Shown: positions 29,324-47,523 of the stretch, piece by piece
How positions within the stretch are numbered: position 1 is the stretch's first letter
Layout: each line of letters opens with the position of its first letter
Origin: Methanoregula sp. SKADARSKE-2
GTDB lineage: Archaea > Halobacteriota > Methanomicrobia > Methanomicrobiales > Methanospirillaceae
DNA: 64,000 bases
Assembly: GCA_030919125.1 (NCBI GenBank)
Contig: CP121470.1
Coordinates: 62,001-126,000, forward strand
Reading direction: 5' to 3'
Made by a program: the position numbers and the translations under genes
Notes under the pieces: model-generated
Databases searched by the model: none
Told to the model about the DNA's origin: nothing
Seen by the model: the letters and a program-made list of their open reading frames with translations, nothing else

Positions 29324-29413
29324 TTTTCAGTCCTTCGGGGGTTTACCCCCATTTACAACCTTTATCATCGGTAAAAATTCAAAAAAAAGATGCGAATCGT
29401 TCACGTTCTTTTA

Positions 29414-29953: not shown

Positions 29954-30158
29954 GGATTATCCATCAGATATTGCGGGGACAATTTTTGAAGGTTGTTATC
30001 TGATGCAGCTTGGAGGAAACCTAGTCCCGTACCTGAACGGTACTTTTGCAGGTGACCTGTGAGGAGAGGAGAGCTCCTGTTGCCGCGAGCTTTCTCTTGC
30101 GGGACTTCCTGCGCGAAAGATCCGGTAAAGGAGGAGGAGATTAAGATTTTGGATAATC

Positions 30159-30809: not shown

Positions 30810-31082
30810 CTAACTCACCAGCGGTGCAAGAAGTTTCTCAAGCGTCGGAGCATCCGTAACGCCTTCCATGGACTGGACGACCTTACCATCTTTCTCGATA
30901 ATAAGGGTCGGGACTACACGGATCCCGTACTTTTCCGCAAGTTCCATATTCTGGTCGACGTCAACCTTCCGGAAGTCGACCCTGTCCCCCATCTTCTTTT
31001 CAAGTTCTTCGATGATCGGTGTCTGCATCCGGCAGGGACCGCACCATGTCGCAAAAAAGTCGAATAAGACCGGTTTACTCAT
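30810..31082 (-). CDS. trxA: Thioredoxin
   Basis: A 90-residue thioredoxin with the active site ATWCGPCRMQ (C14, C17) and cis-proline segment VRVVPTLII. It reduces protein disulfides in the cytosol. It immediately precedes npdG without spacer. A purely physical link to an F420-dependent enzyme suggests a role in methanogen redox control, but this is inference. Confidence 0.94.
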   Translation of the reverse strand: MSKPVLFDFFATWCGPCRMQTPIIEELEKKMGDRVDFRKVDVDQNMELAEKYGIRVVPTLIIEKDGKVVQSMEGVTDAPTLEKLLAPLVS

Positions 31083-31145
31083 TGAACATACCCGGAAGAT
31101 TAGTCGATTAAAAAAAAGATAAAGGTATGGTATCAGGTTTTTTGG

Positions 31146-32606
31146 TTACCTGGAGAGGATCTCCATGATAATCCTGCCATACGCCGGCCGGGTGACAATG
31201 ACACCGACAAGGACACCAAGGATGGTGATGATTGCAAAGCCCTTGAGGGTCGAGAGATCCATGAGCGCGAGCGGGAGCATTGCGATCAGCACCGTTGCCG
31301 CTGCTATCACGATGATACTTAACGCACGCGAGAGGCGCTTTAGGTAAATGTTCGGTGAAGGCACTTTACCTTCGTGCAGGATCTCATCGGTGATAACGAC
31401 AAGCTGATCAATCCCGGTACCCATCACGGCAATCAGACCGGCAATGGTCGGCAGATCCATCTGGAACCGGATGAGGGCAATGAATCCGAGAAGGATAAGA
31501 ACTTCGGATGCGTTGATGAGGACCATCGGGAGGACGATGCTTGGCTCGCGGTACCGGTAGTAAATAACCAACCCGACCGTGATTAAGGCAAAGATTCCGG
31601 CCAGGAGTGCCATTGCCTTATAGCGCTCCCCCATCGGTGCCGGCTGCTGGTTGGAACCTGCAATGGTCACGTCAACCGGCAGGGCACCGGCCCGGAGGTG
31701 GACCTCAAGGTTCGTTGCTTCCTTCTTCCCGTAGTCGCCGTTCCCGGTCGATGCGTAGAGCTGGTTTATGGGTGAAGTCTTGACCTTTGCAGCAAGATCC
31801 GGGGACAGCGGGGCGGAGTACACCGTCTTGTTATCAAGGAGCATCACAAGGTTGTGATTGTCCGGATCAACCGTTGCCCCATATTTTATCGCCGCTGCCT
31901 GGAATGCCGCTGCGCCTGCGTCAATCAGCGTGAAACTGACGCCCCAGTGATTGCTCCCTGGCGGCACCTGGCTCGGGACCTGGACGTTTGTGATCGCATC
32001 GCCGAAGAGGACATGTTCGGTCTGGTTTGCCGTGGTTACGACCCGGATCTCGAACTTACCCTGTTTACCGACAATCTGCTGGGCCTGGTTCATGTCAACG
32101 CCGGCAATCTCGACCCGTATGTACCGCGCGACATTGTTCAGGCCGGTGAGCGTGTTGACTTTGGCGTCCTGTGTACCATAAGTATTGATCTTGTTCTCAA
32201 GAATCCGTTTTACATCGTCGGCGGTGGCCTTCGAAACACCCTGCTGGTAACCGGTTACCTTGCCGCCTTCGGCAGCAAAGATCGGTTCGAGTGCTGCCTG
32301 CGAGTACAGTTTACGGATCTCCAGGTGATTGGCATCCACGACAATTATTTCTGTGTCCAGTTTCTTCGAGAGGTTGGTAACAAAGGTTTCGACCGGTTCT
32401 GCAGTCGTGAATCCTACAACCTCAGCCTGGATGTCGAGCTGGAGCCATGTCCCACCCTGGAGATCGAGGCCGTACTGGAGATTTGTTGCGAGATCTCCCT
32501 GGTTGTCGAGATGCGGGAAGATCGCTACGATCGATATCACAGCAAGGATGAGCAGAGCTGCAACCCGCCAGTCGGTGATGAGTTTTTTCCATTGAGCGCC
32601 GTTCAT
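31146..32606 (-). CDS. secD: SecD preprotein translocase subunit
   Basis: A 486-residue archaeal SecD. It has an N-terminal membrane helix (about 15-32), QYGLDLQGGTWLQLDI, a large extracellular domain, and five C-terminal helices from about 320 on, with MGTGIDQLVVITDEILHEG and ALSIIVIAAATVLIAMLP. SecDF assists export through SecYEG. The ATG at 32604-32606 overlaps the stop of secF by four bases (ATGA), so the genes are translationally coupled in the order secF-secD. An in-frame GTG/ATG nine codons earlier lies inside secF and is less likely. Confidence 0.95.
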   Translation of the reverse strand: MNGAQWKKLITDWRVAALLILAVISIVAIFPHLDNQGDLATNLQYGLDLQGGTWLQLDIQAEVVGFTTAEPVETFVTNLSKKLDTEIIVVDANHLEIRKLYSQAALEPIFAAEGGKVTGYQQGVSKATADDVKRILENKINTYGTQDAKVNTLTGLNNVARYIRVEIAGVDMNQAQQIVGKQGKFEIRVVTTANQTEHVLFGDAITNVQVPSQVPPGSNHWGVSFTLIDAGAAAFQAAAIKYGATVDPDNHNLVMLLDNKTVYSAPLSPDLAAKVKTSPINQLYASTGNGDYGKKEATNLEVHLRAGALPVDVTIAGSNQQPAPMGERYKAMALLAGIFALITVGLVIYYRYREPSIVLPMVLINASEVLILLGFIALIRFQMDLPTIAGLIAVMGTGIDQLVVITDEILHEGKVPSPNIYLKRLSRALSIIVIAAATVLIAMLPLALMDLSTLKGFAIITILGVLVGVIVTRPAYGRIIMEILSR

Positions 32607-33457
32607 TTGCCATCTCCCTTCTGGACATACCATTTCAGGATAGCAGCATTCGTAAGCCAGGTATTCAGGATGTCAGCAACGAGACCTATGAGGAGGACTG
32701 CGGAGATCTCCATGAGGATCTGGACTGACCCGATCCAGGAGACGATAAACATTGCCGCCACAGCCGCAAGGGTTGTGGAGGTCATGATGATACCGGTATG
32801 GAACGCTCCCTGGAGCTTGTCGTGCAGTTTCCCCTGGCGTTTTAAGACCCGGTTCGTCAGCAGGATATCGCTGTCCACCGAATAACCGATCAACATTAAG
32901 AGCGCGGCAACCGTTCCCATGGTGAGTTGAAGCCCGATACTATTCATGGCCTCTGCGGTGATTGCCATGTCGGCAAAAGCCGAGAGAACCACGGCACCTG
33001 CCGGAACAAACGTACGGAACGAGATAAAGATGACAATTACCATCCCGATGAACGAGAATATCAGTGCAAGTACTGCCTGGTACTGAAGGGTTTTTCCAAA
33101 GGTCTCGCCGATCTGGTTGATCTGGGCATCAGGATATTTCTGGGCGATCAGTGCAGAGAGTTCTCTGAACGTGGCATCGTCCGTTGCGCTGAATGTTAAA
33201 AATTTCCCATCGTTCACTCCTTCGCTGATACTATTCAGCGGGTAGCCAGCAAAGTGCGACTGGAGCGTTTCCTTGCTGTCAGTCGTGAAAAGGTTTACCG
33301 CCGTCCCCCCCGAAAAATCGATACCGAGCTGCACCGGCGTCCCCGTTGTGAGGGTGCTGAAAGCGAGCAGCAGTAAGGATACTGCAAGAAGTGCAAGAGG
33401 GATTATCACCAGTTGTTTTGGTGTATATTTCTCGATGGTGTACTTGAACAATCCCAT
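32603..33457 (-). CDS. secF: SecF preprotein translocase subunit
   Basis: A 284-residue SecF. There is an N-terminal helix (PLALLAVSLLLLAFSTL), the QLGIDFSGGTAVNLF motif of the first periplasmic-type region, and five C-terminal helices with IGYSVDSDILLTNRVLKR, the conserved SecF family motif. It partners SecD downstream through a four-base overlap. Upstream is a 220-base AT-rich spacer that presumably carries the promoter. Confidence 0.95.
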   Translation of the reverse strand: MGLFKYTIEKYTPKQLVIIPLALLAVSLLLLAFSTLTTGTPVQLGIDFSGGTAVNLFTTDSKETLQSHFAGYPLNSISEGVNDGKFLTFSATDDATFRELSALIAQKYPDAQINQIGETFGKTLQYQAVLALIFSFIGMVIVIFISFRTFVPAGAVVLSAFADMAITAEAMNSIGLQLTMGTVAALLMLIGYSVDSDILLTNRVLKRQGKLHDKLQGAFHTGIIMTSTTLAAVAAMFIVSWIGSVQILMEISAVLLIGLVADILNTWLTNAAILKWYVQKGDGK

Positions 33458-33679
33458 GTTCTAAACATCTGTCAATCGAGAATTAAATAGTTACCAGAGG
33501 ATCCGGAATCATGGTTTTACCAACCGGAGAATCAATCCCATAATAAAATCCACAGGACGGACAAAAAAATAATTTCGCAGAAAATATCTGTTCCTTTGGA
33601 AATCAGCTGGATTTTTATTCAGGGATTTAAAATTGCCAAAAAGAAAAAAATAAATATAGTTACAAATGAGCCTTAGAGC

Positions 33680-33991
33680 ATGAGATCTCATCCAGAGATC
33701 AAAAGAGTGATCGAGGGACGCCTCAAATCCTACCTCTCAAGGGACCTGACAGGTATCCGGCGTGAAGTCCTTCGCCTCTTTGTCCGCGCCAAATCGATCA
33801 CGGTTGCCGAACTGGTTGCTGAACTCCAGAAACAGTTCACGGTAACATTCCACGCGATCGCTTCCATGGTCGGCATTATTGCTTCCCGTATCGGCATCCT
33901 CCATGCTTCCCGTAATGCGGATGGGGTGAACACGTACGAGCTCAAGGAGAAGTACGTGGATATTGTCTTCAGGATTGTTGGCGTCAACTGA
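33680..33991 (+). CDS. DUF2551 archaeal helix-turn-helix protein
   Basis: A 103-residue basic protein of the DUF2551 type known from methanogens. It contains IEGRLKSYLSRDLTGIRREVL, then a winged-helix-like segment (SITVAELVAELQKQF...HAIASMVGIIASRIGIL) and ends RIVGVN. It is likely a small DNA-binding regulator, but no target is known. A short leader follows the AT-rich region it shares with the divergent secF. Confidence 0.75.
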   Translation: MRSHPEIKRVIEGRLKSYLSRDLTGIRREVLRLFVRAKSITVAELVAELQKQFTVTFHAIASMVGIIASRIGILHASRNADGVNTYELKEKYVDIVFRIVGVN

Positions 33992-34042
33992 GACCCGAAA
34001 GATCCATAACCGTTTTTAGCGTGGTATCCTAATGGTACAACC

Positions 34043-34339
34043 ATGTTTTCCGATCCCCGCGACCGCACCGGTTTGGGTCAGGTCTCCGTTGCTCCGGAGG
34101 TAATCGAATATATCGATCGGCGGGGTTGTGATTTCCGCGTCTGTACATCCTGCGGAGGGCCGATTCTGCTCCCAACCCGCATCAAGCCGCAGAAAAAAAG
34201 CGATCTTCTCCTCAGGGCCGGATCCCACACGATCTATGTATCCATACACCAGGCCCGGTTCCTGAACAGTATCCGGAGGGATATGATCCCGTTCTTTGAT
34301 TCCTACGAGACTGACGGGCGCGATCCGGATGAGTTTTGA
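34043..34339 (+). CDS. Small CxxC protein ahead of archease
   Basis: A 98-residue soluble protein. The only strong motif is RVCTSCGGPILLPTRIKP, a single CxxC that could bind zinc as a dimer. Later residues (YVSIHQARFLNSI, MIPFFDSYE) are conserved-looking but unknown. It overlaps the archease start by 11 bases and precedes rtcB, so it may take part in RNA repair or tRNA splicing (inference from operon). Confidence 0.65.
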   Translation: MFSDPRDRTGLGQVSVAPEVIEYIDRRGCDFRVCTSCGGPILLPTRIKPQKKSDLLLRAGSHTIYVSIHQARFLNSIRRDMIPFFDSYETDGRDPDEF

Positions 34340-34736
34340 AGAGCTCCCCCATACAGCGGATATTAAAATACGGGCCCGCGCCGCCACGCTCGGGGAATTA
34401 TTCTCCGATGTTCTCGCTGCACTTATGCAGGTAATGTACGGGATAGACCGATCCGGAGGGATCTCCCGCGAGATCACGATCGAAGCGCCCGATTCCGAAT
34501 CACTCCTGACAGACATCCTATCAGAAGTCCTCTTCGTATCGGAAGTTGACGGGCTGGTTTTTCAAAAAGCAGAGATCCGTATTGACGGATCCCGGCTCTT
34601 TGCCCGATTTGACGGTGAACCTTTCGATCCGGCCCGGCATTCCGGAGGAACGGAAGTAAAAGGGATCTCGTACTCAGGCATGTCGGTAAAGAAGGATGAG
34701 AACGGATATATGGTGGAGATCGTATTTGATGTATAG
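34329..34736 (+). CDS. Archease, RtcB activator
   Basis: A 135-residue archease. It starts MSFEELPHTADIKIRARA, matching the family N-terminus with its metal-binding Asp, and ends YMVEIVFDV. LLTDILSEVLFVSEVDG is the other recognisable block. Archease speeds guanylylation of RtcB and broadens its nucleotide use (family knowledge). It lies 27 bases upstream of rtcB and overlaps the upstream CxxC gene. The frame is open for 11 codons before the chosen ATG. Confidence 0.94.
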   Translation: MSFEELPHTADIKIRARAATLGELFSDVLAALMQVMYGIDRSGGISREITIEAPDSESLLTDILSEVLFVSEVDGLVFQKAEIRIDGSRLFARFDGEPFDPARHSGGTEVKGISYSGMSVKKDENGYMVEIVFDV

Positions 34737-34763
34737 CGGGTCTCCCGCGGGATGGTGTGAGAG

Positions 34764-36197
34764 ATGCTTGACGGCGTACTGCAAAAAGGGACCTATGAAT
34801 GGGAAGTGCCGATAGGCTTTGTGCCGGGCATGCGCGTGCCGGGGAGGTTTTTCCTTTCAGAGCACCTCGAAAGTATCCTTGAATCCGGAGCGATCCACCA
34901 GCTCGCACACGTCGCCACAATGCCGGGAATTGTAAAAAATTCGCTTGCAATGCCCGATATCCATCTCGGGTACGGGTTTCCGATCGGGGGCGTCGCGGCA
35001 TTCTCCCTTGATGAGGGCGTCATTTCCCCCGGAGGTGTGGGTTTTGATATCAATTGCGGGGTCAGGCTCTTCACAACGCCTGTCCCGGAGAGATCTGTTG
35101 CCGGCCGCCGTGAGCTGATTGAAGATCTCTTTAAGACCATCCCGACCGGAGTGGGGGGGAAAAGCCAGTCCAAACTCTCTCCGCAGGCTCTCGATGCAAT
35201 GATGACCAAAGGAGCCCGCTGGGCGGTTGAACAGGGGGCAGGTGTTGAACGGGATCTGGACAGGTGCGAGGAGAACGGGTACATGAAACAGGCAAACATC
35301 AGTGCCGTCTCCTCGCACGCAAAGCAGCGTGGATATTCGCAGGGCGGGACTCTCGGATCGGGCAATCACTTCCTCGAAATCCAGATCGTCCGGGAAATTT
35401 TTGATTCGAAGGCTGCAAACGCATTCGGAATTTCCAAAGGACAGGTATGCTGCATGATCCATTGCGGTTCACGGGGACTTGGCCACCAGAGCTGCACGGA
35501 TCATCTCAAGATAATGGAGGGTGCCATGCGGAAGTATAAGATCAGCCTCGCAGACCGGCAACTCGCGTGCGCCCCTCTCGATTCACCGGAAGGCAGGGAC
35601 TATTTTGGCGCCATGGCGGCTTCTGCGAATTATGCGTGGGCAAACCGGCAGCTGATCACGCATGCAGCCCGCAGGCTCTTTGCCAGGACATTCCGGATCG
35701 AATATGAGGAGATGCCCCTTGTTTACGATGTGGCGCATAACGTTGCGAAAATGGAGGAGCACACCGTCGATGGAAAGAAGCAGACCGTATGCGTCCACCG
35801 CAAAGGGGCCACGCGCGCATTCGGCCCGGGATCTCCTGACATCCCCCCCGGGCTTGGAGAGATCGGGCAGCCGGTCATTATCCCCGGCAGCATGGGGACA
35901 TCATCCTATATTCTCTGCGGCACGCAGGGGGCGATGGACCGGACATTCGGCAGTACCTGCCATGGCGCAGGCCGTATCATGAGCAGAACGTCTGCGAAGA
36001 GACAGTTGAGCGGTAAGGACGTGACAGCCAGGCTCCTGCAGAAAGGGATCATCGTCCGGGCACACAGCGAGAACGCGATCGCGGACGAGGCACCTGAGGT
36101 ATACAAGCCAAGCGATGAAGTGGTCCAAGTGGTGCACAGTGCAGGAATCTCCCGGCTTGTCGCGCGGTTATCTCCCCTTGGAGTGATCAAGGGATGA
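34764..36197 (+). CDS. rtcB: RtcB tRNA-splicing ligase
   Basis: A 477-residue RtcB, which joins 2',3'-cyclic-phosphate and 5'-hydroxyl ends using GTP and Mn2+. Metal ligands are visible at GVGFDINCGVRL (C98), SGNHFLEIQ and MIHCGSRGLGHQ. YDVAHNVAKME and STCHGAGRIMSRT carry the conserved histidines, the latter the guanylylated one. No intein is present, unlike some archaeal RtcBs. It follows archease, and its stop overlaps the next gene by four bases. The window contains an intron-bearing tRNA-Met that could be a substrate. Confidence 0.97.
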   Translation: MLDGVLQKGTYEWEVPIGFVPGMRVPGRFFLSEHLESILESGAIHQLAHVATMPGIVKNSLAMPDIHLGYGFPIGGVAAFSLDEGVISPGGVGFDINCGVRLFTTPVPERSVAGRRELIEDLFKTIPTGVGGKSQSKLSPQALDAMMTKGARWAVEQGAGVERDLDRCEENGYMKQANISAVSSHAKQRGYSQGGTLGSGNHFLEIQIVREIFDSKAANAFGISKGQVCCMIHCGSRGLGHQSCTDHLKIMEGAMRKYKISLADRQLACAPLDSPEGRDYFGAMAASANYAWANRQLITHAARRLFARTFRIEYEEMPLVYDVAHNVAKMEEHTVDGKKQTVCVHRKGATRAFGPGSPDIPPGLGEIGQPVIIPGSMGTSSYILCGTQGAMDRTFGSTCHGAGRIMSRTSAKRQLSGKDVTARLLQKGIIVRAHSENAIADEAPEVYKPSDEVVQVVHSAGISRLVARLSPLGVIKG

Positions 36198-36769
36198 GCT
36201 GCCGGGCCGGGTTTGTCTGGCTTACCGCGCAGCATTTCAACAGGTACATCGATGACCTTGGGATCTCCTGCGAACTGGTAACTCCCTATATCCTTGCGGC
36301 CCCGTTCTACCGGGGGAGGTTCAACTGCCTGATAATTCCGACAGGTTTTGGAAATGCCCAGTTCTCAAACCTCCTTCCGGCCCTGCGCGCCTCGTCCGAC
36401 AGGATCCTGAAATTTGTCGAAGATGGGGGCAACCTGCTGGTCTTTGGGGCTGCTGCCGAAAAACCGGATGCATATGACTGGCTCCAGACCCCGCTTACCT
36501 ATCATCACGATATTCACCCGCGGTGCGTCACCTCTGGTTCTCCTTCCGATGCGGGATCCATTATCGATGATTATTATCCGGGCCGCATCGAGTGCGACGG
36601 CTCGTTCTCAGCGCAAGACTGGGAGCATGTCTGTGTGGCGGAAGGTGCACCGGTTGTCCTGGAGAGAAGGAACGGTGAAGGAAGGATAGTCGTCACAAGC
36701 GTACATGAGTATCCATCGCGGGAGTTCCTGAAAAGATTCTGCTGCTCAGGGAAAGAGACGGTATTCTGA
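36194..36769 (+). CDS. Glutamine-amidotransferase-like protein coupled to rtcB
   Basis: A 191-residue protein of flavodoxin/class I glutaminase-like architecture. It has an N-terminal WLTAQHFNRYIDDLGI, a strand-loop CLIIPTGFGNAQFSN, and FVEDGGNLLVFGAA, the place where GATase-like folds have a nucleophile elbow. No catalytic Cys-His-Glu triad is obvious. The ATG overlaps the rtcB stop (ATGA), so it belongs to the same operon. Function unknown; a sensor or scaffold in RNA repair is possible. Confidence 0.55.
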   Translation: MSCRAGFVWLTAQHFNRYIDDLGISCELVTPYILAAPFYRGRFNCLIIPTGFGNAQFSNLLPALRASSDRILKFVEDGGNLLVFGAAAEKPDAYDWLQTPLTYHHDIHPRCVTSGSPSDAGSIIDDYYPGRIECDGSFSAQDWEHVCVAEGAPVVLERRNGEGRIVVTSVHEYPSREFLKRFCCSGKETVF

Positions 36770-37212
36770 TCCATTCGGCGGGTTGTAAAAACAAAAATCC
36801 ATTCTGGAAAGACCGGATCTAAAAACGGGCCAGCCACATTTTTAGTGCCTGCCCTTGCCAAAAAATGTTAAATTTTTTGGGGAGGGCCCCTGAATCGAAA
36901 TTTGGGGGAGGGTGGAGATCCAAAAGCAACCATCCCGGCAGCCAGCACGATCTTTGGAACCCGCAGCCTCTGGTGCCGGAAAAAAACTGGGAGACCCCAC
37001 TCAGCCTGAAGTAAAACCGTGAACATTCCCCGGGACTAAATTTTTTGTTTGTACCCGGAGTAATTCCGGCCAGTACCCGGCGAGAACGGAACAATGGATA
37101 GTAATCCGATGGCATCCTTCTCCCGGAGTCCCCTGATCGCACCGACCCGATACGGCGTTTGCGGAATATTCTTCTAGATAGAGAATGACCAGACTTATGA
37201 GGCTCCCGTCTT
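36770..37212. other. Intergenic region, no supported gene
   Basis: About 440 bases between the rtcB operon and the DUF2111-birA pair. No coding frame or clear element. CTTCTAGATAGAGAATG near 37168 is AT-rich and might hold the downstream promoter. Confidence 0.45.
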
Positions 37213-37635
37213 ATGGACAGTTACACGTTGTCATGCAGCGCAGAAGCTGTTGATCTCGAACCCTTTGTTCTTGCCGTGCACAATTTAATCCATCGGCTAC
37301 CCGTCACTGCCAAATCCCGCGATCGTGACGGAATACGGGTTGAGGAGGGGAGAGTGATCGACCGGCACTACAATGGGCCGGTCCTGCTGGAGGCGATCCG
37401 GACAAACAGCATCATCCGGAGGACCCCGCAGGAGGGCACATATCAGGGGGTGCCGGTAACCGTTGCCCCGATCCAGGACAATGAGGGAAGAGCCATCGGG
37501 GCGATCGGAGTTGTTGACATCACCGGAATATTTGATCTCGCGACACTCATGGAACACCAGTCTGCAATTCTTAAGCAGGTCTGCGGCAAGGACCCCTGCC
37601 CGCTCCCCTCGGAAAAGATTGATTCGAAATGGTGA
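37213..37635 (+). CDS. DUF2111 protein
   Basis: A 140-residue protein of the methanogen DUF2111 type. It has VLAVHNLIHRLPVTAKSR, a RVEEGRVIDRHYNGPVLLEAI block and VAPIQDNEGRAIGAIGVVDITG, a PAS/GAF-like beta-alpha pattern with C-terminal Cys (QVCGKDPCPL). It overlaps birA by 7 bases, so it may sense a metabolite tied to biotin or pyruvate carboxylase (inference). No enzymatic motif is visible. Confidence 0.7.
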   Translation: MDSYTLSCSAEAVDLEPFVLAVHNLIHRLPVTAKSRDRDGIRVEEGRVIDRHYNGPVLLEAIRTNSIIRRTPQEGTYQGVPVTVAPIQDNEGRAIGAIGVVDITGIFDLATLMEHQSAILKQVCGKDPCPLPSEKIDSKW

Positions 37636-38621
37636 TCATCTTGTCGGAAACCGCATTCAAGGTGCTCGAGATTCTCGAGCGATCCAAGGAGCCCGTCTCC
37701 GGGGAGACCATAAGCAACGAACTGAAAATTACCCGATCCGCGGTCTGGAAGCAGGTAAACGAGCTCCGGATGATGGGGTATGATATCTCTTCATCCCAGA
37801 AGAAGGGATACCAGATTACCCACACGAGTAACCGGCTCCTGCCCTATGAGATTCACAAGAGGCTCCGGACGCAGTTCATCGGGAAGAAGATGCGATACCT
37901 GGAGAATACACCTTCGACCAATGCAATCGGAAAACAGCTCGCAGCGGAAGGGAACATCGAAAGACTGAATGGGATGGTGATCATTGCCGAAGAGCAGACC
38001 GGTGCGGTCGGGCGGATGGGAAGACCATGGGTCTCTCCTACAGGGGGAGTCTGGGTAACCATCATCCTCAAGCCGCATATTCCCATAGACCATATTTTTA
38101 TGATTACGATGGCCGGATCGGTTGCTGTTGCCCGTGCGATCCGGAAAGAGTTCGATCTCGGGGCCCTGATCAAGTGGCCGAACGATATTTTCATCGGGAG
38201 CAAGAAGGTGTCCGGCCTTCTCCTCGAACTCTCAGCGGAAGCCGATGCCGTCCACCACTGCGTCGTAGGAATCGGTATCGATGTCAATGTGTCGATAGAG
38301 AATTTTTCACCGGAACTGCAGAATCTTATCACCTCGATCAGCGCAGAGCTCGGGCACGAAGTGGACCGGGCTGCGTTCCTTGCAAGGATCCTCAGGGAAT
38401 TCGAGAGCAGATATCTCCTGCTGGAGAGCGGGGAGTACGATACGATCATCCAGGAATGGAAAAGCCTGTCATGCACGCTTGAGAACCGGGTCCAGATCCG
38501 GACCCTGAAGAACAGCTTTGAAGGTGATGCAATCGATATCGACGAATCCGGCGCACTTGTCGTACGAAAAGACAGCGGGAAGATCGAGCGCGTTATTGCC
38601 GGGGACTGCTGCCACCAGTAA
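37629..38621 (+). CDS. birA: Bifunctional biotin-protein ligase/biotin repressor
   Basis: A 330-residue BirA. An N-terminal winged helix-turn-helix (about 5-60; SGETISNELKITRSAVWKQV) is followed by the ligase: TPSTNAIGKQL, the nucleotide loop GRMGRPWVSPTGGVWVTI, IKWPNDIFIGSKKVSGLLLE with its catalytic Lys, and an SH3-like C-terminal domain. It attaches biotin to PycB and, with biotinyl-AMP bound, should repress transcription. A matching operator overlaps the bioY start downstream. Start could also be the TTG four codons later. Confidence 0.95.
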   Translation: MVIILSETAFKVLEILERSKEPVSGETISNELKITRSAVWKQVNELRMMGYDISSSQKKGYQITHTSNRLLPYEIHKRLRTQFIGKKMRYLENTPSTNAIGKQLAAEGNIERLNGMVIIAEEQTGAVGRMGRPWVSPTGGVWVTIILKPHIPIDHIFMITMAGSVAVARAIRKEFDLGALIKWPNDIFIGSKKVSGLLLELSAEADAVHHCVVGIGIDVNVSIENFSPELQNLITSISAELGHEVDRAAFLARILREFESRYLLLESGEYDTIIQEWKSLSCTLENRVQIRTLKNSFEGDAIDIDESGALVVRKDSGKIERVIAGDCCHQ

Positions 38622-38639
38622 GAGTTCCGGCACCTATTT

Positions 38640-38673
38640 ATCGTCAACTGCGTAATTTTTTGTAGTTGACGAT
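38640..38673 (+). promoter_or_regulatory. Probable BirA operator at the bioY promoter/start
   Basis: A perfect 10-bp inverted repeat, ATCGTCAACT at 38640-38649 and AGTTGACGAT at 38664-38673, with a 14-base spacer. The right arm includes the first two bases of the bioY ATG, and CTATTTATC (38634-38642), a likely TATA box, overlaps the left arm. Arm length, spacing and GTCAAC/GTTGAC core resemble the known BirA site. Binding would block transcription initiation. Confidence 0.75.
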
Positions 38674-39198
38674 GTTCGGGGATCTGGAAAAATCACGGTT
38701 TATCGCATATTCTACCGCCTTTGTTGCGCTCATCACCCTTGGGGGGTGGGTATCCATCCCGTTTTATTCGGTTCCTTTCACCCTCCAGACAATGTTCATC
38801 CTTCTTGCCGGCATTGTTATGAAAAGGTCGGCAGTCGTACCGGTTCTTATCGCTATCCTGCTTGGCGTGCTCGGTGTCCCGGTCTTTCATAACGGTATTG
38901 CCGGAGTCGGGGTCCTGCTGGGGCCTACCTGGGGGTATTTCATCGGGTTTATCTTCGCAGCGCTGATAACCGGGCTTGCATATGAATCAAGATCAGATTA
39001 CGCTCGAATTCCAGGAATTGTTGCGGCAACGATCGCAATTTACGGCTTCGGGGCCCTGTGGTTGATGTACTCCCTTGGTCTCGGGTTGGTTTCGGCAATT
39101 GTCGCGGGCGTGTCCTCCTCTCAGGGCCTCCGGCCGAGGTTTTCCCAGTTTTGGCCCAGACACCGTTTTATCCGCTTTCGTGGAGGTGCGCCCGGTGA
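38672..39198 (+). pseudogene. bioY: BioY biotin-binding transporter subunit, C-terminal frame lost
   Basis: The first about 145 codons are a good BioY S-component: IPFYSVPFTLQTMFILLAG, VPVFHNGIAGVGVLLGPTWG and GYFIGFIFAALITG. After VSAIVAGV (about 39110) the same frame turns into a hydrophilic non-BioY sequence and would run to 39436, deep into the next gene. The last BioY helix motif appears instead as fragments in other frames (FPVL, then DTVLSAFVEV). A TGA at 39196-39198 in one of those frames would give the expected overlap with the bioM GTG. I infer indels in 39110-39170. Confidence 0.65.
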
Positions 39199-39887
39199 AC
39201 CTTACCCTCGAAGCCATCAGGATCTCCCGGGGGGAATGGTCGGTATCCGCACAGGCGATATTCGAAGAAGGCGTTCATCTTGTGAGCGGAAAGGTGGGAA
39301 GCGGGAAATCCACCCTGGCACTGGTAATGGCCGGGCTACTTCGGACAGATTCGGGATCGGTTCTTCCCCGGGGGATCTCTTCCAGGATGGTCTCGTTCCA
39401 GTTTCCGGAATACCATCTCACCGGGTCAACCGTTGATGAGGAATGCAGTTCGTGGGGCGTGGATCCTGAAAAGGTAATTTCTTCGGTAAAATTAGGAGAG
39501 AAGCGAAATCTTCCGCCCCTTTCTCTCAGCCGGGGAGAACTCAAGCGCCTGCATCTTGCCTGCATCCTGTCCAAAAAGTACGATCTCCTCATCCTTGACG
39601 AACCCTTCAGCTCGCTCGATTGCCGGGAAAAGGAGAGGGTTTCACGGGAGATCTCCTCACACGGTTCGGGCATCACCGTCATCCTCTCCCACGAACAGGC
39701 GATATTCCCCCGGGTGGATTTTATCTGGGAGATCCGCAATGGTACGCTCATGTGCCTCGGAAGTCAGCCGTCGACCCTTCCGAAGTGGCACCTTGCCCCG
39801 GAAATTATCAAAAACCTTATTGCAGCAGGAAAAGTCCCCCTGAATATCGCACCCGGTGATCTGCTGGAGGCGGCAAGCAGGACATAA
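39195..39887 (+). CDS. bioM: ECF-type ABC ATPase of the biotin transporter
   Basis: About 230 residues. Walker A is SGKVGSGKSTLALVMAG, signature LSRGELKRLHLA and Walker B DLLILDEPFSSLD, with an H-switch in VILSHEQ. This is the energising ATPase of an energy-coupling factor transporter with BioY and BioN. I choose GTG at 39195 because GGAGGT lies at 39182-39187. The frame is intact, unlike both partner genes, so a working BioYMN complex is not expected unless it uses other partners. Confidence 0.85.
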   Translation: MNLTLEAIRISRGEWSVSAQAIFEEGVHLVSGKVGSGKSTLALVMAGLLRTDSGSVLPRGISSRMVSFQFPEYHLTGSTVDEECSSWGVDPEKVISSVKLGEKRNLPPLSLSRGELKRLHLACILSKKYDLLILDEPFSSLDCREKERVSREISSHGSGITVILSHEQAIFPRVDFIWEIRNGTLMCLGSQPSTLPKWHLAPEIIKNLIAAGKVPLNIAPGDLLEAASRT

Positions 39888-40528
39888 GGATCCGTGTAGC
39901 TTCAGCATCGGTCCTCTCCCTTACAGCATTTTTCAGCATTCCGGACGCTCTTGCGGCACTCGGATGGTGGCTCGTCTTCACCCCGGGCATACGGCTTCTG
40001 AAAAAAGGATGGAGTATTCTTCCGGTACTTGCCCTGGTTGCGTTCTTTGGTCTTGTGCTTGAGATGACTACTGGCGGCTGACTGTCGTATTTCATCCGGA
40101 TGTCGGTAATTATTCTTATCGGGATCTGGATGTATAGCGAATACCGGCCCGGCGACTTTCTTGAGCTCTGCGGTTGGCTTCTTGGAAACCGGGCAGGTTT
40201 TGGACTGGGTATTGTTGCGGAAATGGGGATGCAGGGTCTTGACCTGCTCGTGTCCGATGCCGGCCGGATCCGCATGGCGATGGGCCTTAAAAATCTCCGG
40301 TGGGGGGTGCGGACACTTCTCCCTGCGGGCTTTATCATGATACAGGGGGCGATCGCGAGGGCGGATGAAGTGGCAGAGTTGCTGGCGGTCCGGGGGTACC
40401 GGTCCAGGGGAACGGTCTGTCCGGAGTTCAGAACGGGAACATGGGATTATATTGCCGGAATCGCAATGATTTTCGTGCTGGTTGCCGGTTTCGTTCCTGT
40501 TAGTGAATTTTTTATACTTTACCGATGA
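39884..40528 (+). pseudogene. bioN: BioN ECF transmembrane (T) subunit, lost start codon and internal TGA
   Basis: One frame encodes a complete T component: RIRVASASVLSLTAFF, helices including WSILPVLALVAFFGLVLEM, then MSVIILIGIWMYSEYRPGD and the coupling motif AIARADEVAELLAVRGYRS. It begins with ATA at 39884-39886 exactly where an ATG would overlap the bioM stop (ATGA now ATAA). A TGA at 40079-40081 replaces a probable TGG. Both changes are G to A. Neither would be tolerated, so the gene is dead or the bases are miscalled. A shorter product from 40100 would lack the first helices. Confidence 0.75.
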
Positions 40529-40577
40529 ATTTTTGAGAGGCTAAACCTGATCACACGGAGGCCATGAGGTTTCCTCC

Positions 40578-42317
40578 TTGCGTAATGCCTCCCCTCACAA
40601 AGTTCTTATTACCGATACAACACTCCGGGACGCACACCAGTCGCTGATAGCGACGCGGCTCCGGACTGAGGATATGCTTCCTCTTGCATGTGAAATGGAC
40701 CACTGCGGTTTTTTCTCTGTAGAAGCGTGGGGCGGTGCGACATTCGACACGTGCATACGGTTTCTTAACGACGATCCCTGGGAACGTCTCCGGGCGCTGA
40801 AGTCGGAACTGAAGCAGACCCCAATCCAGATGCTTCTCCGGGGGCAGAACCTTGTCGGCTACCGGCACTATCCCGACGATGTAGTGGACAGGTTCATCGA
40901 AGCAGCTTACCGGAACGGGGTCGGGGTTTTCCGGGTCTTTGATGCGCTGAACGATATCAGGAATATGAAGCGGTCGATGTACCAGGTGAAAAATGTTGGC
41001 GGCCACCTGCAGGGAACAATATCCTACACGACAAGCCCTGTCCATAATACAGAGATCTTCATCGATATGGCAAAGGACCTCTATTCCCATAACTGCGATT
41101 CGATCTGCATCAAGGACATGGCGGGCCTCATCATGCCCGAAGCTGCCCGCGATCTTATCACCGGCATAAAGAAGGAAATAGACATCAAGATCAACCTGCA
41201 CAGTCATTCGACAAGCGGGATTGCGCCCATGAGTTACCAGACGGCAATAGAAGCCGGGGTCGATATCCTTGATACTGCAATGTCCCCGTTCTCCCTGGGA
41301 ACGTCCCAGCCGCCGACCGAGAGTGTCGTTGCATCGCTGATCGGCAACCCCCGCGAAACCGGCATCGATCTGATAAAACTCCGGACCGTCCGGAACCTTT
41401 GCATGCAGGTCCGGGAGAAATACGGAGGACTGGTAAACCCGATATCGGAACGCGTCGACTCGGATGTCCTGATCTACCAGTTGCCCGGGGGAATGATATC
41501 CAATACAGTCTCACAGCTCCAGGAGCAGGATGCACTGGACCGGTGGGATGATGTCCTTGCCGAGATTCCCCGGGTTCGCGAAGATCTCGGGTACCCGCCG
41601 TTGGTCACTCCAACGAGCCAGATTGTCGGAACCCAGGCAGTCCTTAACGTACTCGTGAACGGCCAGAGGTACCGGAACGTGACAAAGGAAGTCAAGGATT
41701 ATGTCCGGGGCCTGTACGGGAAGTCCCCAGCACCCGTGACTGACGGTTTCCGCCACCTTATCATTGGAGATAAGGAAGTCATCACTGTCCGGCCTGCCGA
41801 TCTTCTCGAACCTGCATACGAGAAGATGAAGAAAGAGGCCACAGCAGCGGGTCTTGTGAAGAAGGAAGAGGATATCCTCACATACATCCTCTACCCTGCA
41901 ATTGCTCCATCATTCTTGAAAGGGGAGAGATCCAACGAACCAATTCCGGCGAAACAGCCAGCAGCAAAACCACAACCCGATCTCCCCGGCCAGATGGAAG
42001 TCGAAGTCGATGGGGAGGTCTTCTCGGTCAGGATTGTATCTGTCGGGGGCAGCCAGGTTGCGGTCACGAGCGTAACACCGCAGAGAGCCCCGCGAGGTGA
42101 GTTTGCCGGGGGAGTTAAGAGCAACATGCAGGGCATGGTCCTGCAGGTGCTGGTTAACCGGGGTGCTGTCGTGAAAAAAGGCGATACCCTTGTTGTCCTC
42201 GAGGCAATGAAGATGGAGAATTCCATCCACAGCCCGGTTGATGGCAAGGTCACCGAGATCTTCGTCGATACCGGCGATGTCGTCCAGAATGGCGACGTCC
42301 TGCTGGTGGTCCAATGA
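40578..42317 (+). CDS. pycB: Pyruvate carboxylase subunit B (carboxyltransferase and biotin carrier)
   Basis: A 579-residue protein. The HMG-lyase-like carboxyltransferase domain (about 1-270) shows LITDTTLRDAHQSL and NLHSHSTSGIAPM metal/substrate motifs. A conserved carboxylase domain follows, then a proline-rich linker and a biotinyl domain with VLEAMKMENS, where the Lys is biotinylated. With PycA it makes oxaloacetate for biosynthesis. The start is TTG at 40578 with GAGGT upstream at 40565; TTTATAC at about 40512 is a promoter candidate. It overlaps pycA by four bases. Confidence 0.95.
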   Translation: MRNASPHKVLITDTTLRDAHQSLIATRLRTEDMLPLACEMDHCGFFSVEAWGGATFDTCIRFLNDDPWERLRALKSELKQTPIQMLLRGQNLVGYRHYPDDVVDRFIEAAYRNGVGVFRVFDALNDIRNMKRSMYQVKNVGGHLQGTISYTTSPVHNTEIFIDMAKDLYSHNCDSICIKDMAGLIMPEAARDLITGIKKEIDIKINLHSHSTSGIAPMSYQTAIEAGVDILDTAMSPFSLGTSQPPTESVVASLIGNPRETGIDLIKLRTVRNLCMQVREKYGGLVNPISERVDSDVLIYQLPGGMISNTVSQLQEQDALDRWDDVLAEIPRVREDLGYPPLVTPTSQIVGTQAVLNVLVNGQRYRNVTKEVKDYVRGLYGKSPAPVTDGFRHLIIGDKEVITVRPADLLEPAYEKMKKEATAAGLVKKEEDILTYILYPAIAPSFLKGERSNEPIPAKQPAAKPQPDLPGQMEVEVDGEVFSVRIVSVGGSQVAVTSVTPQRAPRGEFAGGVKSNMQGMVLQVLVNRGAVVKKGDTLVVLEAMKMENSIHSPVDGKVTEIFVDTGDVVQNGDVLLVVQ

Positions 42318-43789
42318 AATATTTTGAGAAACTCTTAATCGCCAACCGCGGCGAGATCGCTATCCGCGTGATGCGTGCCTGCCGCGAGCTGGACATCGAG
42401 ACGGTTGCCATCTATTCGGATGCCGACAAGAATGCGCTTCACGTAAAATATGCGGATGAGGTGTTTTACGTCGGTGAGGCTCACCCCTCGAAGAGTTACC
42501 TCAACCAGGAGAGGATAATCGAAGTCGCGAAGAAAAGTGGAGCTGAAGCGGTTCACCCAGGCTACGGGTTCCTTGCGGAAAACTACCGGTTTGCAAAACT
42601 CTGCCTCGATGAAGGTGTCACTTTTATCGGCCCGAAATGGAAGACCATCCAGGCGATGGGATCGAAGATCGGGAGCAAACAGATGATGAAGGATGCCGGT
42701 GTCCCGGTCCTTCCGGGAACGGACAGCGGGATCAAAAGCATCGAGGATGCTAAAAAAGTCGCAGCCGGTATCGGGTACCCGGTCATTGTCAAGGCAAGTG
42801 CCGGGGGTGGTGGAATCGGCATGCAGATCGTCAACGACGAGAAAACTCTCGAAGACGCGATAACCGGAAGCATGCGGATAGCCCAGTCAGCTTTTGGCGA
42901 TGCAACGGTTTTCATTGAAAAATACCTGGTGAAACCACGGCATATCGAATTCCAGGTGCTTGCCGACGAACACGGTAACGCAGTCCACCTTTTTGACCGG
43001 GAGTGTTCGATCCAGCGCCGTCACCAGAAACTGATCGAGGAGGCGCCATCCCCAATCATGACCCAGGATCTGCGCTGCAGGATGGCGGGGTCTGCGCTTA
43101 AGGTTGCAGAAGCTTCCGGGTATTCAAATGCCGGCTCGGTTGAGTTCCTGTACAGCGAGGGCAATTATTATTTTATGGAGATGAACACCCGGTTGCAGGT
43201 GGAGCACACCATCACCGAGTTTGTCACCGGCGTGGATCTGGTAAAACAGCAGATTGCAATAGCAGCCGGGGAATCTCTCTCCTTCGATCAGTGCGACCTC
43301 TCGATCCGGGGCCATGCGATCGAATGCAGGATCAATGCAGAAGATCCGCGCAAAAACTTTGCGGCAGATCCCGGTAAGATCGTGCGATACCGCTCACCGG
43401 GAGGCCCGGGTATCCGGGTGGACAGCGGGATTCACATGGGCTATACCATTCCCGCGAACTATGACTCCATGATCGCCAAACTCTGCGCATGGGACAGTAC
43501 CCGGGAGGAGGTGATCCGGCGTATGCGTCGCGCATTGTCCGAATATATCATCCTTGGGATCAAAACGACCCTCCCGCTCCACTACGCTATAATGAACAAT
43601 CAGCAGTTCGTGGAAGGGAACACGCATACTCACTTCTTACAGGAAGAGCATATCCTGAGCACTCTTGACCGGTATACCAAGGATGAAGAGACGCGAATGC
43701 AGACCCTCGCAGGATCGTTCGAACAGGGCAAGAAAGTGGCGGCAATTTCTGCTGCAGTCAATACTTATCTTCAGCAGAGAAGGGGCTGA
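42314..43789 (+). CDS. pycA: Pyruvate carboxylase subunit A (biotin carboxylase)
   Basis: A 491-residue biotin carboxylase. It has KLLIANRGEIAIRVMRACREL at the start, the ATP-grasp loop KASAGGGGIGMQIV, and FMEMNTRLQVEHTITE with metal-binding Glu and catalytic Arg. Bicarbonate is activated with ATP and passed to biotin on PycB. The ATG overlaps the pycB stop (ATGA). Split pycA/pycB is the normal methanogen arrangement, although the order here is B then A. Both genes are intact. Confidence 0.97.
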   Translation: MKYFEKLLIANRGEIAIRVMRACRELDIETVAIYSDADKNALHVKYADEVFYVGEAHPSKSYLNQERIIEVAKKSGAEAVHPGYGFLAENYRFAKLCLDEGVTFIGPKWKTIQAMGSKIGSKQMMKDAGVPVLPGTDSGIKSIEDAKKVAAGIGYPVIVKASAGGGGIGMQIVNDEKTLEDAITGSMRIAQSAFGDATVFIEKYLVKPRHIEFQVLADEHGNAVHLFDRECSIQRRHQKLIEEAPSPIMTQDLRCRMAGSALKVAEASGYSNAGSVEFLYSEGNYYFMEMNTRLQVEHTITEFVTGVDLVKQQIAIAAGESLSFDQCDLSIRGHAIECRINAEDPRKNFAADPGKIVRYRSPGGPGIRVDSGIHMGYTIPANYDSMIAKLCAWDSTREEVIRRMRRALSEYIILGIKTTLPLHYAIMNNQQFVEGNTHTHFLQEEHILSTLDRYTKDEETRMQTLAGSFEQGKKVAAISAAVNTYLQQRRG

Positions 43790-43855
43790 GATAGGAAAAG
43801 AGCGTCCAGCAGAACCTTTAATAATTTTTACGGCGTTTTTATTATGCAATTCTGT

Positions 43856-43968
43856 GCTGCGGTGGCCTAGCTGGTTAGGGCGCCAGACTCATAGGGTGAA
43901 TGTACGCACCTAAAGCGTCCATGCTTTGAGACATCTGGAGATCGGGGGATCGTAACCCTCCCGCAGCA
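43856..43968 (+). tRNA. tRNA-Met (anticodon CAT) with a 39-nt intron
   Basis: The acceptor stem pairs GCTGCGG (43856-43862) with CCGCAGC (43961-43967), discriminator A. The anticodon stem CCAGA/TCTGG encloses CTCATA, with CAT at 43890-43892. An intron at 43894-43932 interrupts after position 37, the standard archaeal site. The D arm (GCCTAGCTGGTTAGGGC) is normal. The T loop reads ATCGTAA, with A and T swapped at the usual T54-A58 pair. Elongator tRNA-Met is most likely; tRNA-Ile2 also has a CAT anticodon and cannot be excluded. Confidence 0.88.
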
Positions 43969-44130
43969 TAATTCCATCAGCTCTCTTTTAATTGGATCAT
44001 TCCCTGATAGAGGGTGTACACTGTCCCAAATATGAATTCTATGGCAATTTTGGCGATTTTTAGCAGCACCCGGCGATAAATTTATCTTCCGTTTACGCAT
44101 ACACATATTCGTAAATTGAGGTGAAATGTG

Positions 44131-44634
44131 ATGGTTCTTCTTGCAAACGCAGCAGTTGGTTTGATCCAGTTGGTCATTGCCGTTATCTTTGCAGTTATTG
44201 CGCTGTACATTGGCTTCTCCGTGCTGGGAAAAATCACGAAAAATATTGATGAGGAAAAAGAACTTGCAAAGGGCAACACCGCTGTAGGTATAATCGTTGC
44301 CGCAGTTTTCGTTGCAATTGCACTTGTTGTCCAGTCGGGTGTTTCAGGTCTTTCTGTAGGTATCAACAAGGCGCTGGATGTCGGACTCTTCTCCCTTGAC
44401 GGGATGCTTGCAGTAGGGGTTGCGCTTATCCAGCTCATCCTTGGGATTATCCTTGCGGTTGGAGCAATCTACCTCGCACTCAATGTTCTTGACAAGCTCA
44501 CAAAGGGTGTAGAAGAGTTCGAGGAACTCAAGAAGGGGAATGTCGCTGTAGCTCTTGAGATGGCAGGCGTTATCATCGCCGTTGCGGTCATCATCCAGTC
44601 AGGAGTCATCGGCATCACTGCATCAATTCTTTAA
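44131..44634 (+). CDS. DUF350 membrane protein with internal duplication
   Basis: A 167-residue, four-helix membrane protein of the DUF350 type. It consists of two repeats: LIQLVIAVIFAVIALY... KGNTAVGIIVAA... VVQSGVSG (about 8-75) and LIQLILGIILAVGAIY... KGNVAVALEMAG... IIQSGVIG (about 95-160). A short loop of Glu/Lys residues separates the helices in each half. I choose the ATG at 44131 because GAGGTG sits six bases upstream; a GTG precedes it directly. AATTTATC near 44077 may be its TATA box. Function unknown. Confidence 0.8.
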   Translation: MVLLANAAVGLIQLVIAVIFAVIALYIGFSVLGKITKNIDEEKELAKGNTAVGIIVAAVFVAIALVVQSGVSGLSVGINKALDVGLFSLDGMLAVGVALIQLILGIILAVGAIYLALNVLDKLTKGVEEFEELKKGNVAVALEMAGVIIAVAVIIQSGVIGITASIL

Positions 44635-44746
44635 TCTTTTTTTCGTGAAATCCTTTGAAGGATACATCAAGTCCCGGGTCTGTGGATATTCATCAAAAGG
44701 AAATACCGGGCGTGAGGAGTCGGGTGTTTCAGGTCTTCCAAAAAAT

Positions 44747-45976
44747 CTATCGTTGCCCATAACGATTGATGGTCTGAATTAACTGAGCAAACCCCTCCAT
44801 CTCTATCCGGAGGACCTGATTATGTGTCATACCCATACTGGTCTCGGCATCGGCAGTGAGCATTTCAGGGCCACGAACAATTAATCGTTCGATCCCATCA
44901 GAGGTGAGGATGTCATATGCCTCCGATTCATGGACGAATGCGCGTCCGGGGAGAATGACGACCGGTTCAAGTGATGTTAAAGGAACCTTTTTGAGATCTT
45001 CTGCAGTTATAAGGCAAGCTATCTCTTTTTCAACGGCAACAACCGGAGATTTGAATCCACGCTCCGCGAGAACCCGTTCAATAAACGGAGCAGCTACGCT
45101 TCCACTGATGATCGACGCTCTTTGTTGAATGGGGGGGAGTTTTTTGAGGAGATGCGGTTCGGTCAGAATCGCGAATGGTGACCCGATCTCCGGATCCCAT
45201 AATGGCGTTCCTGAAATTTTTATCCGGAATCTCCGGCTCAGCTCGGTTATTGTATCCCGGAATGATTCAACCGACTGGACGTCCTGCGTCTCAATGATCG
45301 GCCCGTTCCCGAGAATCAGACCCTGTCCGGTCGCATTTGCAAATCGCATCAGGATGATACCTTTCGCTCCCCGTTCCTCAAGCCATTCGCAGGTTTCTTC
45401 AAGAATGTCGCCGTCGTTTACTCCGGGGAGAACGACCGCGGCCGCATAGATATCCACCTCTTCACAGAGGGATTCGAGGATTTGTAAAGATACCTCCGGA
45501 GAAGGGTCGTGCATGTAGCGTTTCCGCAAGCCGGGATCAGACGCAAAAACCGTAAAAGAAATTTCAGAGAGTCCGTTATCGATCAACAGATCGCCAACAT
45601 TTGGATCATCCCACCCTTTTCCGCTGGTGTACCCTATATGCAATGGGGCTTCCATGCTCCCGAGCAGCTCGATGAGATCGGTAAACTGCGGATAACAACT
45701 GGGATCACCGCCCCCGCTGATGGTTATCCGTTCAATTTCGCCATCCTTTCGCTGGAGATTTGCAAGCGTCTCATCAGCGATGGTTTTGAGATCCTTAAAA
45801 CCTGCATACTCTTCCCGGATCCCGCGGGAGCAATAATCACAACCCTTCTTGAATGGCAGACAGTACCGGCAGCCGAGCGGCTGCAATCCTTTTACTTTTT
45901 TGAAATAACAGTATTCACAGAAACCACGGCAGTTCACCCCAGGGCTTCCGCCAATGTCTACGCTCAGCTGTGCCAT
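44747..45976 (-). CDS. mmp10: Methanogenesis marker protein 10, radical SAM arginine methyltransferase
   Basis: A 409-residue radical SAM enzyme. The cluster motif is CRGFCEYCYF (C16, C20, C23), followed by further cysteines in PLGCRYCLPFKKGCDYC. ITISGGGDPSCYPQ is the SAM-binding GGD-type segment. Mmp10 installs the 5-C-methyl group on an active-site-proximal arginine of McrA, the methyl-coenzyme M reductase alpha subunit (established for methanogens). This strongly supports a methanogen. It ends convergently with the DUF350 gene; ATTATACC upstream near 46000 fits a promoter. Confidence 0.92.
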   Translation of the reverse strand: MAQLSVDIGGSPGVNCRGFCEYCYFKKVKGLQPLGCRYCLPFKKGCDYCSRGIREEYAGFKDLKTIADETLANLQRKDGEIERITISGGGDPSCYPQFTDLIELLGSMEAPLHIGYTSGKGWDDPNVGDLLIDNGLSEISFTVFASDPGLRKRYMHDPSPEVSLQILESLCEEVDIYAAAVVLPGVNDGDILEETCEWLEERGAKGIILMRFANATGQGLILGNGPIIETQDVQSVESFRDTITELSRRFRIKISGTPLWDPEIGSPFAILTEPHLLKKLPPIQQRASIISGSVAAPFIERVLAERGFKSPVVAVEKEIACLITAEDLKKVPLTSLEPVVILPGRAFVHESEAYDILTSDGIERLIVRGPEMLTADAETSMGMTHNQVLRIEMEGFAQLIQTINRYGQR

Positions 45977-46068
45977 CTGTACTCTAATGTTCAGTTCCCG
46001 GGGTATAATGTGTTTGGGAGGATTGGAAACACCATCTTTTTTACACTATAATGTCTATGTAGTATGGC

Positions 46069-46141
46069 GCCTCAGTGGCTTAGTTGGCAGAGCGGCTGAC
46101 TTGTAATCAGCAGGTCCCGTGTTCAAATCACGGCTGAGGCT
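46069..46141 (+). tRNA. tRNA-Thr (anticodon TGT)
   Basis: The acceptor stem pairs GCCTCAG (46069-46075) with CTGAGGC (46134-46140), discriminator T. The anticodon arm GCTGACTTGTAATCAGC contains TGT. The T arm is CCCGTGTTCAAATCACGG. There is no intron. A degraded tyrosine recombinase begins within about 100 bases downstream, so the tRNA is the likely integration site of the following element. Confidence 0.95.
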
Positions 46142-46229: not shown

Positions 46230-47523
46230 TCCAATGTGCCTTTCATCAAATTAAGGCAGATTATCCCGAACGATCTTTTGCGAGAGCATTGAAGGAAGGA
46301 AAAATTACCGAACGTGATGTTACGCTCATCCGGTCCTTCATAGCTGAGCTGCAATCGTCCCGCAACACCAGCACCAAACGTGCGTACAAAATTACGTTCA
46401 CTCTTGTCAGCTGGCGACGCTTCATCGGCCCGTTCGAGAAAAACGACATGGCTGCACTTTATGCCGGCATCGCTGCATTGAAATCCGGCAGGAGCAAGCG
46501 GGGCCGGGAGTTCATGAAGAGCACGATCACCGACCACATGATCATTCTCAAAACAGTTTTACCTCTGGCTCATCGAGAATGAGTACGTCGCTATTCCGGA
46601 AAAGAAACTCAAGGCCCTCAAGAAACCTCATCATGAGACCATGACCAGGTTGCCTCGGACCTGCTCACGACCGAAGAGATCACCGCGATGGTGGGCGCCT
46701 GCACTCGCAATAGTGACCGGGCCATCATCATGATGCTCTACGAAGGCGGGTTCCGCATAGGCGAGATCGGGGGAGTGAAATGGGGCGACCTCACCTTCGA
46801 TAAATGGGGCGTTATCGCGAACGTGAACTTCAAGATCGGCAAGCCCCGGTACGTTCATCATGTCCCGCGAGGCCCTGCAAAATGGAAGAACGATTATCCG
46901 GCAAAACCGGTTACCAATGAGATGCCGATCTTCATCACGGAGCACCAGACGGCCCTCACTCGCGGGTCTGTGGCCCTGCAGCTCAAGCGACTGGCAAAGC
47001 GGGCCGGGGTCCAGAAGCATATCACCCCGCACATATTCCGCCATTCACGCATCCCCCACCTCATCAAAGAGAACATATCAGAGAGCGTGATCAAGCTGAT
47101 GATGTGGGGCAGCCTCACGACCAACATGTTCCAGACCTATGCCCATCTCACGGGTAAGGACATCGACAACGAGACGCTGCGGACCTACGGGATCACGGAA
47201 ACCGAGACTGGTGAAGGGATGAGTGAATTACGCATCGAGCCACGCCAGTGCCCGCACTGCAAGCTCATCAACGGGCCATGGATGAGTTCTGCAATTCCTG
47301 CGGACGGTCACTTACTGAACTGGCAACCGAAGCCGAAGATGATATTCACGATAGCATTCTCAAAAACATGGCCTCGCTCAAGCGGTTCATTGCGAAAAAA
47401 GCGTTGACGAGCGAATCGAGCACTGGCTGTTCATGTTTTTTGGCGGTTGAGAGCTATCCGCGGATCCCGCATAAAGCAGCAGCAACACCATCACTCCGGA
47501 AGGTACCGAAGATTTTCTGCTGA
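46230..47523 (+). pseudogene. Tyrosine recombinase (archaeal integrase), frameshifted
   Basis: Segments in at least three frames make up one integrase. The N-terminal SAM-like domain (FARALKEGKITERDVTLI) shifts near 46555 to give YLWLIENEYVAIPEKKLKAL, then shifts again near 46650 to LLTTEEITAMVGACTRN. The catalytic part has YEGGFRIGEI (Arg), PHIFRHSRIPHL (His-x-x-Arg) and FQTYAHLTG (Tyr). A C-terminal zinc ribbon, CPHCKLINGP then EFCNSCGRSL, is split by a further shift near 47277. It sits beside tRNA-Thr and would have driven integration of the element at 46142-49106. Confidence 0.85.

Follow-up and report, generated by a model that had tools for sequence, protein, structure and literature searches.

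A decayed biotin importer beside intact birA and pyruvate carboxylase genes in a likely Methanoregula endosymbiont

How does a methanogen keep a biotin-dependent enzyme supplied with its cofactor when the importer genes next to that enzyme are broken? The question is raised by a 64,000-nucleotide stretch of DNA (the window) from Methanoregula sp. SKADARSKE-2 (assembly GCA_030919125.1, contig CP121470.1, positions 62,001 to 126,000 of the forward strand), whose genome is a single contig of 1,949,073 bases. The loci most closely matching the window are those of Methanoregula MAGs, and there the gene order is birA-bioY-ecfA1-ecfA2-bioN-pycB-pycA. These relatives share both the family and the order of the ECF biotin transporter BioMNY: a BioY S component, two ATPases and a T component, all beside birA. 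According to PMC3398298, a biotin auxotroph that has a pyruvate carboxylase imports the vitamin through BioYMN. The window differs in that its S, T and one of its A genes are broken, leaving a single whole ATPase gene, as the following features show.

37629..38621, + strand: birA, intact, 330 aa, with HTH_11, biotin ligase and BPL_C domains
38640..38673, + strand: BirA-operator-like inverted repeat, arms at 38640-38649 and 38664-38673 with 14 bases between them, the right arm lying over the bioY ATG
38672..39112, + strand: what remains of bioY, some 147 codons out of 169-171; the deletion has taken the GDxxK motif and the last helix
39110..39115, + strand: joint of a deletion of 651 bases, placed by spacing against the relatives, exact base not fixed
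39112..39198, + strand: ecfA1 tail, 28 codons and the stop, about 195 codons deleted, recognised from tblastn matches to the relatives' first ATPase and from their open reading frames
39195..39887, + strand: ecfA2, open, 230 aa, with ATPase motifs (entry P0241 of the genome itself)
39875..40528, + strand: bioN (EcfT) remnant, start codon lost at 39875-39877, TGA at 40079-40081, open from the ATG at 40100 (142 aa)
40578..42317, + strand: pycB, intact, 579 aa, with a TTG start and the sole biotinyl domain found in the genome
42314..43789, + strand: pycA, intact, the biotin carboxylase subunit

A preliminary description of this DNA had bioY losing its frame in its last helix. It is true that bioY can no longer give a whole protein, but the cause is the joint of a 651-base deletion and not a small indel; a small frameshift in bioY is ruled out by the extra ATPase gene that the relatives carry between bioY and the gene then called bioM. 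The distance from the bioY ATG to the ecfA2 start is 523 bases in the window versus 1174 in the relative locus L041, so that 651 are missing; likewise, the bioY start and the ecfA1 stop are 527 bases apart here versus 1178 in eight of ten relatives (1175 and 1181 in the other two). Starting at around codon 147 of bioY and reaching almost to the end of ecfA1, the deletion has removed about 22 codons of the former, including the last helix and the GDxxK motif, and about 195 of the 223 codons of the latter. The surviving tail of ecfA1 remains in its own frame (positions 39106-39189 match the first ATPase of L041 and L046 at 71% by tblastn), and the joint mimics a frameshift because bioY and ecfA1 occupy different frames.

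The GDxxK motif of BioY has a role in binding. It is present in the relatives, where it aligns with the structure 4dve of Lactococcus BioY, and it is deleted in the window, whose Pfam BioY match ends at model position 117 of 140. A working BioMNY transporter requires a whole BioY with this C-terminal motif and two ATPase subunits; the window has a truncated BioY, the whole of ecfA2 and only the last 28 codons of ecfA1. The nearest whole BioY, P0001, is full length and 97% identical to the remnant; compared with P0001, the remnant has four differences up to residue 146, one of these being a Gly to Trp change within a conserved stretch. P0001 lies on a contig of 2343 bases, and so does P0335, an EcfA2 with just 61% identity, the source being the same for both; should this be a single contig, the BioY and EcfA2 on it would have different histories. 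A search for plasmid relatives of the operon gave only one match, of 71 bases.

The bioM that had been described as intact is ecfA2, and its frame is indeed open with the ATPase motifs in place. In bioN, both of the lesions previously reported are real, but neither is quite as it was described. The start codon that is lost is the one at 39875-39877, and the ATA at 39884 that had been named lies three codons further on; the window has AAG at this position, where the matching codon is ATG in all 22 relatives read, and the frame from 39860 to the stop contains a single ATG, immediately before that stop. The TGA at 40079-40081 stands in place of a glycine codon, and not of TGG for tryptophan: glycine is found in 21 of 21 aligned relatives (GGG in 9, and GGA, GGC and GGT in 4 each). 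The whole EcfT/BioN that a working BioMNY transporter also requires is thus gone through loss of its start and an internal stop. A programmed frameshift or a recoded TGA is ruled out as well, since the last helix of BioY is deleted and the bioN start is lost. The very near BioN protein P0121 (154 aa; three members, the largest of their contigs having 496,055 bases) retains glycine at the position of the window's stop, but its own gene call begins no earlier than an internal Met; from this gene call, it would seem that the start was lost before the in-frame stop arose.

None of the window's lesions occurs in any of the 31 Methanoregula-type loci with which it was compared. BioY is whole in 28 of these (L036 has an N gap, L040 has Ns and in L051 the gene is off the contig), as is EcfA1 in 28 (the others being L036 with its gap, L057 at a contig end and L051). 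EcfA2 is whole in 22 and open with a divergent tail in L055, while five copies are cut and three are off the contig; in L045, near its contig end, the match contains one stop. BioN is whole in 22 loci and open in L043, where it is a few residues shorter; in the other eight it is off the contig. In a profile comparison of 40 genomes including the window's own, 36 of the 39 relatives have a BioY match, and 34 of these matches reach position 138 or 139 of the 140 in the model; the short ones end at a contig end (G019) and at an N gap (G022). The region 28400-46000 is syntenic with the relatives and its other matched genes appear to be open, so that the decay is patchy.

What remains around the broken operon is, as the preliminary description had it, the regulator, its operator and the client enzyme. 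Like the Group II BirA systems, the locus combines a protein having both a helix-turn-helix and a ligase domain with a nearby conserved inverted repeat as candidate operator. The repeat has perfect 10-bp arms in the window, and at least nine paired bases in 29 of 30 relatives (the remaining one is masked by Ns). Unlike those systems, however, the genome's only site matching the operator core pattern with zero mismatches precedes a dead importer gene, and it may serve pycBA. The gap between bioN and pycB is 49 bases in the window and 27-94 bases in 21 of 21 relatives; given so short a gap, pycBA is predicted to lie at the end of the same transcript as the importer genes, with the operator region as its promoter. 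The operator region would then have been kept because it also drives pycBA, and BirA because PycB, the only match in a biotinyl-domain search of the genome, needs biotinylation. PycA, PycB and BirA are all about as conserved here as they are in the relatives.

Biotin is therefore likely a requirement of this cell; the search for bioB gave no sign of its synthesis, and the only recognised importer is lost. It had been proposed that biotin must now come from another transporter or from synthesis. Synthesis is not supported: the biotin synthase gene bioB, the mark of a biotin prototroph, scores 34 bits at best, where the cut-off is 225, and the profile search finds none over the cut-off in this genome or in the 39 relatives. 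With regard to import, the remnant is the one copy of BioY in the whole genome, a search for a second having found none, and no ECF S component of family PF12822 exceeds the cut-off in the genome (best 19.9 bits) or in 24 relatives. There are three other EcfT matches, two beside CbiM-like genes and a third for which no neighbouring S gene was seen, in a count that a second bioN could escape, as PF02361 catches bioN poorly. Neither archaeal nor bacterial PEP carboxylase was found in the genome; the absence of the archaeal enzyme is ordinary, as only 11 of the 39 relatives, and 3 of 23 within the genus, possess it.

The genome is likely that of Ca. Methanoregula pelomyxae, a cytosolic endosymbiont of the anaerobic amoeba Pelomyxa schiedti. 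In PMC10579272, this archaeon is both cytosolic and essential, the amoeba having died when methanogenesis was blocked, and its assembly was made from seven single-cell libraries (reads in BioProject PRJNA672820); assemblies from several cells were aligned with one another, and PCR served to close the circle. Ciliates, too, are reported to carry symbionts with near-identical Methanoregula 16S (PMC11378729). The main text of PMC10579272 contains no mention of biotin or pseudogenes, nor any branched-chain or transposon/transposase terms.

Four accounts of the broken importer can be weighed against these data. Sequencing, amplification or assembly errors, which the preliminary description had allowed for, would leave the importer whole in the living cell. 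Amplified single-cell DNA can indeed give chimeric deletions, the N gap in the draft L036 is at a place similar to that of the window's deletion (a caution that drafts can fail there), and P0121 retains the glycine. Nevertheless, there would have to be three independent errors, a 651-base deletion and two point lesions, in adjacent genes, although the window has no N there and 13 genes neighbouring the operon are syntenic and open; the aligned single-cell assemblies and PCR closure argue further against it, and the call of P0121 itself starts at an internal Met. We regard error as very unlikely for the operon taken as a whole. A different possibility is that biotin is no longer needed, the pyruvate carboxylase standing unused and about to be lost, and decay having yet to reach BirA and PycBA. 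The importer loss looks recent, other biosynthetic genes have decayed, and pycB begins with TTG at 40578-40580, whereas in the relatives read an ATG stands there or close by. Against this, of the columns that are invariant in the other sequences, 1 of 249 is changed in PycA and 5 of 310 are changed in PycB, within the range of the relatives (median 2 for both, maximum 20 for PycA and 15 for PycB), and no PEP carboxylase of either type is there as a replacement, all of which makes an idle enzyme improbable.

If biotin is needed, the archaeon could have an alternative carrier of its own, belonging to a family in which biotin import has not been recognised, that made BioY redundant. The continued constraint on pyruvate carboxylase and BirA would fit such a carrier, as would the three additional EcfT genes, one of them lacking an adjacent S gene; the genome has no other BioY, however, the PF12822 search came up empty, and two of the three EcfT genes adjoin CbiM-like genes, so that we consider this explanation conceivable but rather unlikely. 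It seems probable instead that, with bioY-ecfA1-ecfA2-bioN broken by the deletion, the lost start and the in-frame stop in what is likely Ca. Methanoregula pelomyxae, the pyruvate carboxylase obtains its biotin from the host. We infer this host supply, and its history might have been as follows: an ancestor entered the host cytosol, where biotin would have been in steady supply and selection for high-affinity import would have weakened as a result; the importer would then have been broken by drift together with deletion and point mutation, as were leuA and ilvB/ilvN elsewhere in the window. How the vitamin would cross the archaeal membrane is a further matter. Membranes are poorly permeable to biotin according to PMC3459881, which makes passive entry doubtful. 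A bolder version of host supply, in which biotin enters through a host-made carrier at the archaeal membrane, would give a symbiont that needs biotin but has neither a biotin transporter of any known family nor biotin synthesis, and an amoeba in control of its symbiont's only anaplerotic enzyme; we think this a long shot.

The kind of event proposed is already known, and a partial literature collection yielded no paper in which this symbiont is described as having lost its biotin import. In a passage of PMC12662959, the endosymbionts Methanobrevibacter sp. NOE and Methanocorpusculum sp. MCE are intracellular methanogens with pseudogenes and lost amino-acid synthesis, in which they resemble the present case; the differences are that this is a Methanoregula, that a vitamin importer is lost while the vitamin-dependent enzyme is kept, and that the passage names no biotin genes. 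Chlamydia, as described in PMC3459881, is likewise an intracellular microbe depending on host biotin, supplied by a host carrier together with its own BioY; it keeps its BioY and puts the host carrier on its vacuole, whereas here BioY is broken and the cell lies free in the cytosol. The supply of a cytosolic archaeon having one biotin enzyme and no recognisable importer becomes a testable question, in a one-contig symbiont genome that is in active decay and for which host dependence for branched-chain amino acids is predicted.

The loss of the importer appears to be recent. Mean identity to the relatives, compared with the leaf median, is 0.598 versus 0.646 for BioY, 0.557 versus 0.569 for EcfA2 and 0.479 versus 0.506 for BioN, and conservation of the remnants so near to that of the relatives indicates a recent event; an old decay with an excess of amino-acid change is not seen in them. 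Judging from the sequences, with ecfA2 whole and little excess change, the consequences of this decay may not yet have played out.

Two further biosynthetic loci of the window are broken:

50674-51612, - strand: ilvB/ilvN (acetolactate synthase); ilvB changes frame near residue 56, breaks off at about residue 156 and is fused with ilvN
51613-52990, - strand: leuA-like gene split into two frames, about 50 residues missing

The ilvB remnant covers model positions 2-156 in two frames, and there is no full ilvB elsewhere in the genome; the gene is over the cut-off in 21 of 24 relatives, the other three being incomplete drafts. There are two leuA paralogues elsewhere in the genome, near full length and both below the model cut-off. 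The genome has 68 DDE_Tnp_1 matches, compared with 0-20 in 15 genomes of the same genus (2 in the one-contig congener G011) and 0-48 in nine genomes from the order's other genera (48 in G026), draft genomes being prone to undercount transposase repeats. At 1.95 Mb it is smaller than the one-contig congeners G011, G017 and G020 (2.5, 3.2 and 2.9 Mb), though a small size is not unique, the draft congener G003 having 1.9 Mb at 96% completeness. A smaller genome, a transposon excess and broken biosynthesis genes, the marks of a reductive genome, are thus found together, and the transposases along with the broken leuA and ilvB/ilvN point to a wider decay after host restriction.

The window also holds transposase genes of several kinds (15009-15803, 15877-16713, 25051-26028, 27007-27627 and 49433-50269); a stop splits the copy at 15877-16713 and is not present in that at 49433-50269. 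Just after a tRNA-Thr gene (46069-46141) is a tyrosine recombinase remnant with two in-frame stops (46238-47278, + strand). Finally, two genes on the - strand are possibly truncated: an Nramp-like gene (4305-5225), whose match is confined to positions 82-356 of a 357-position profile, and a fragment of 103 aa (22939-23250) corresponding to the first 61 of the 347 MFS_1 positions.
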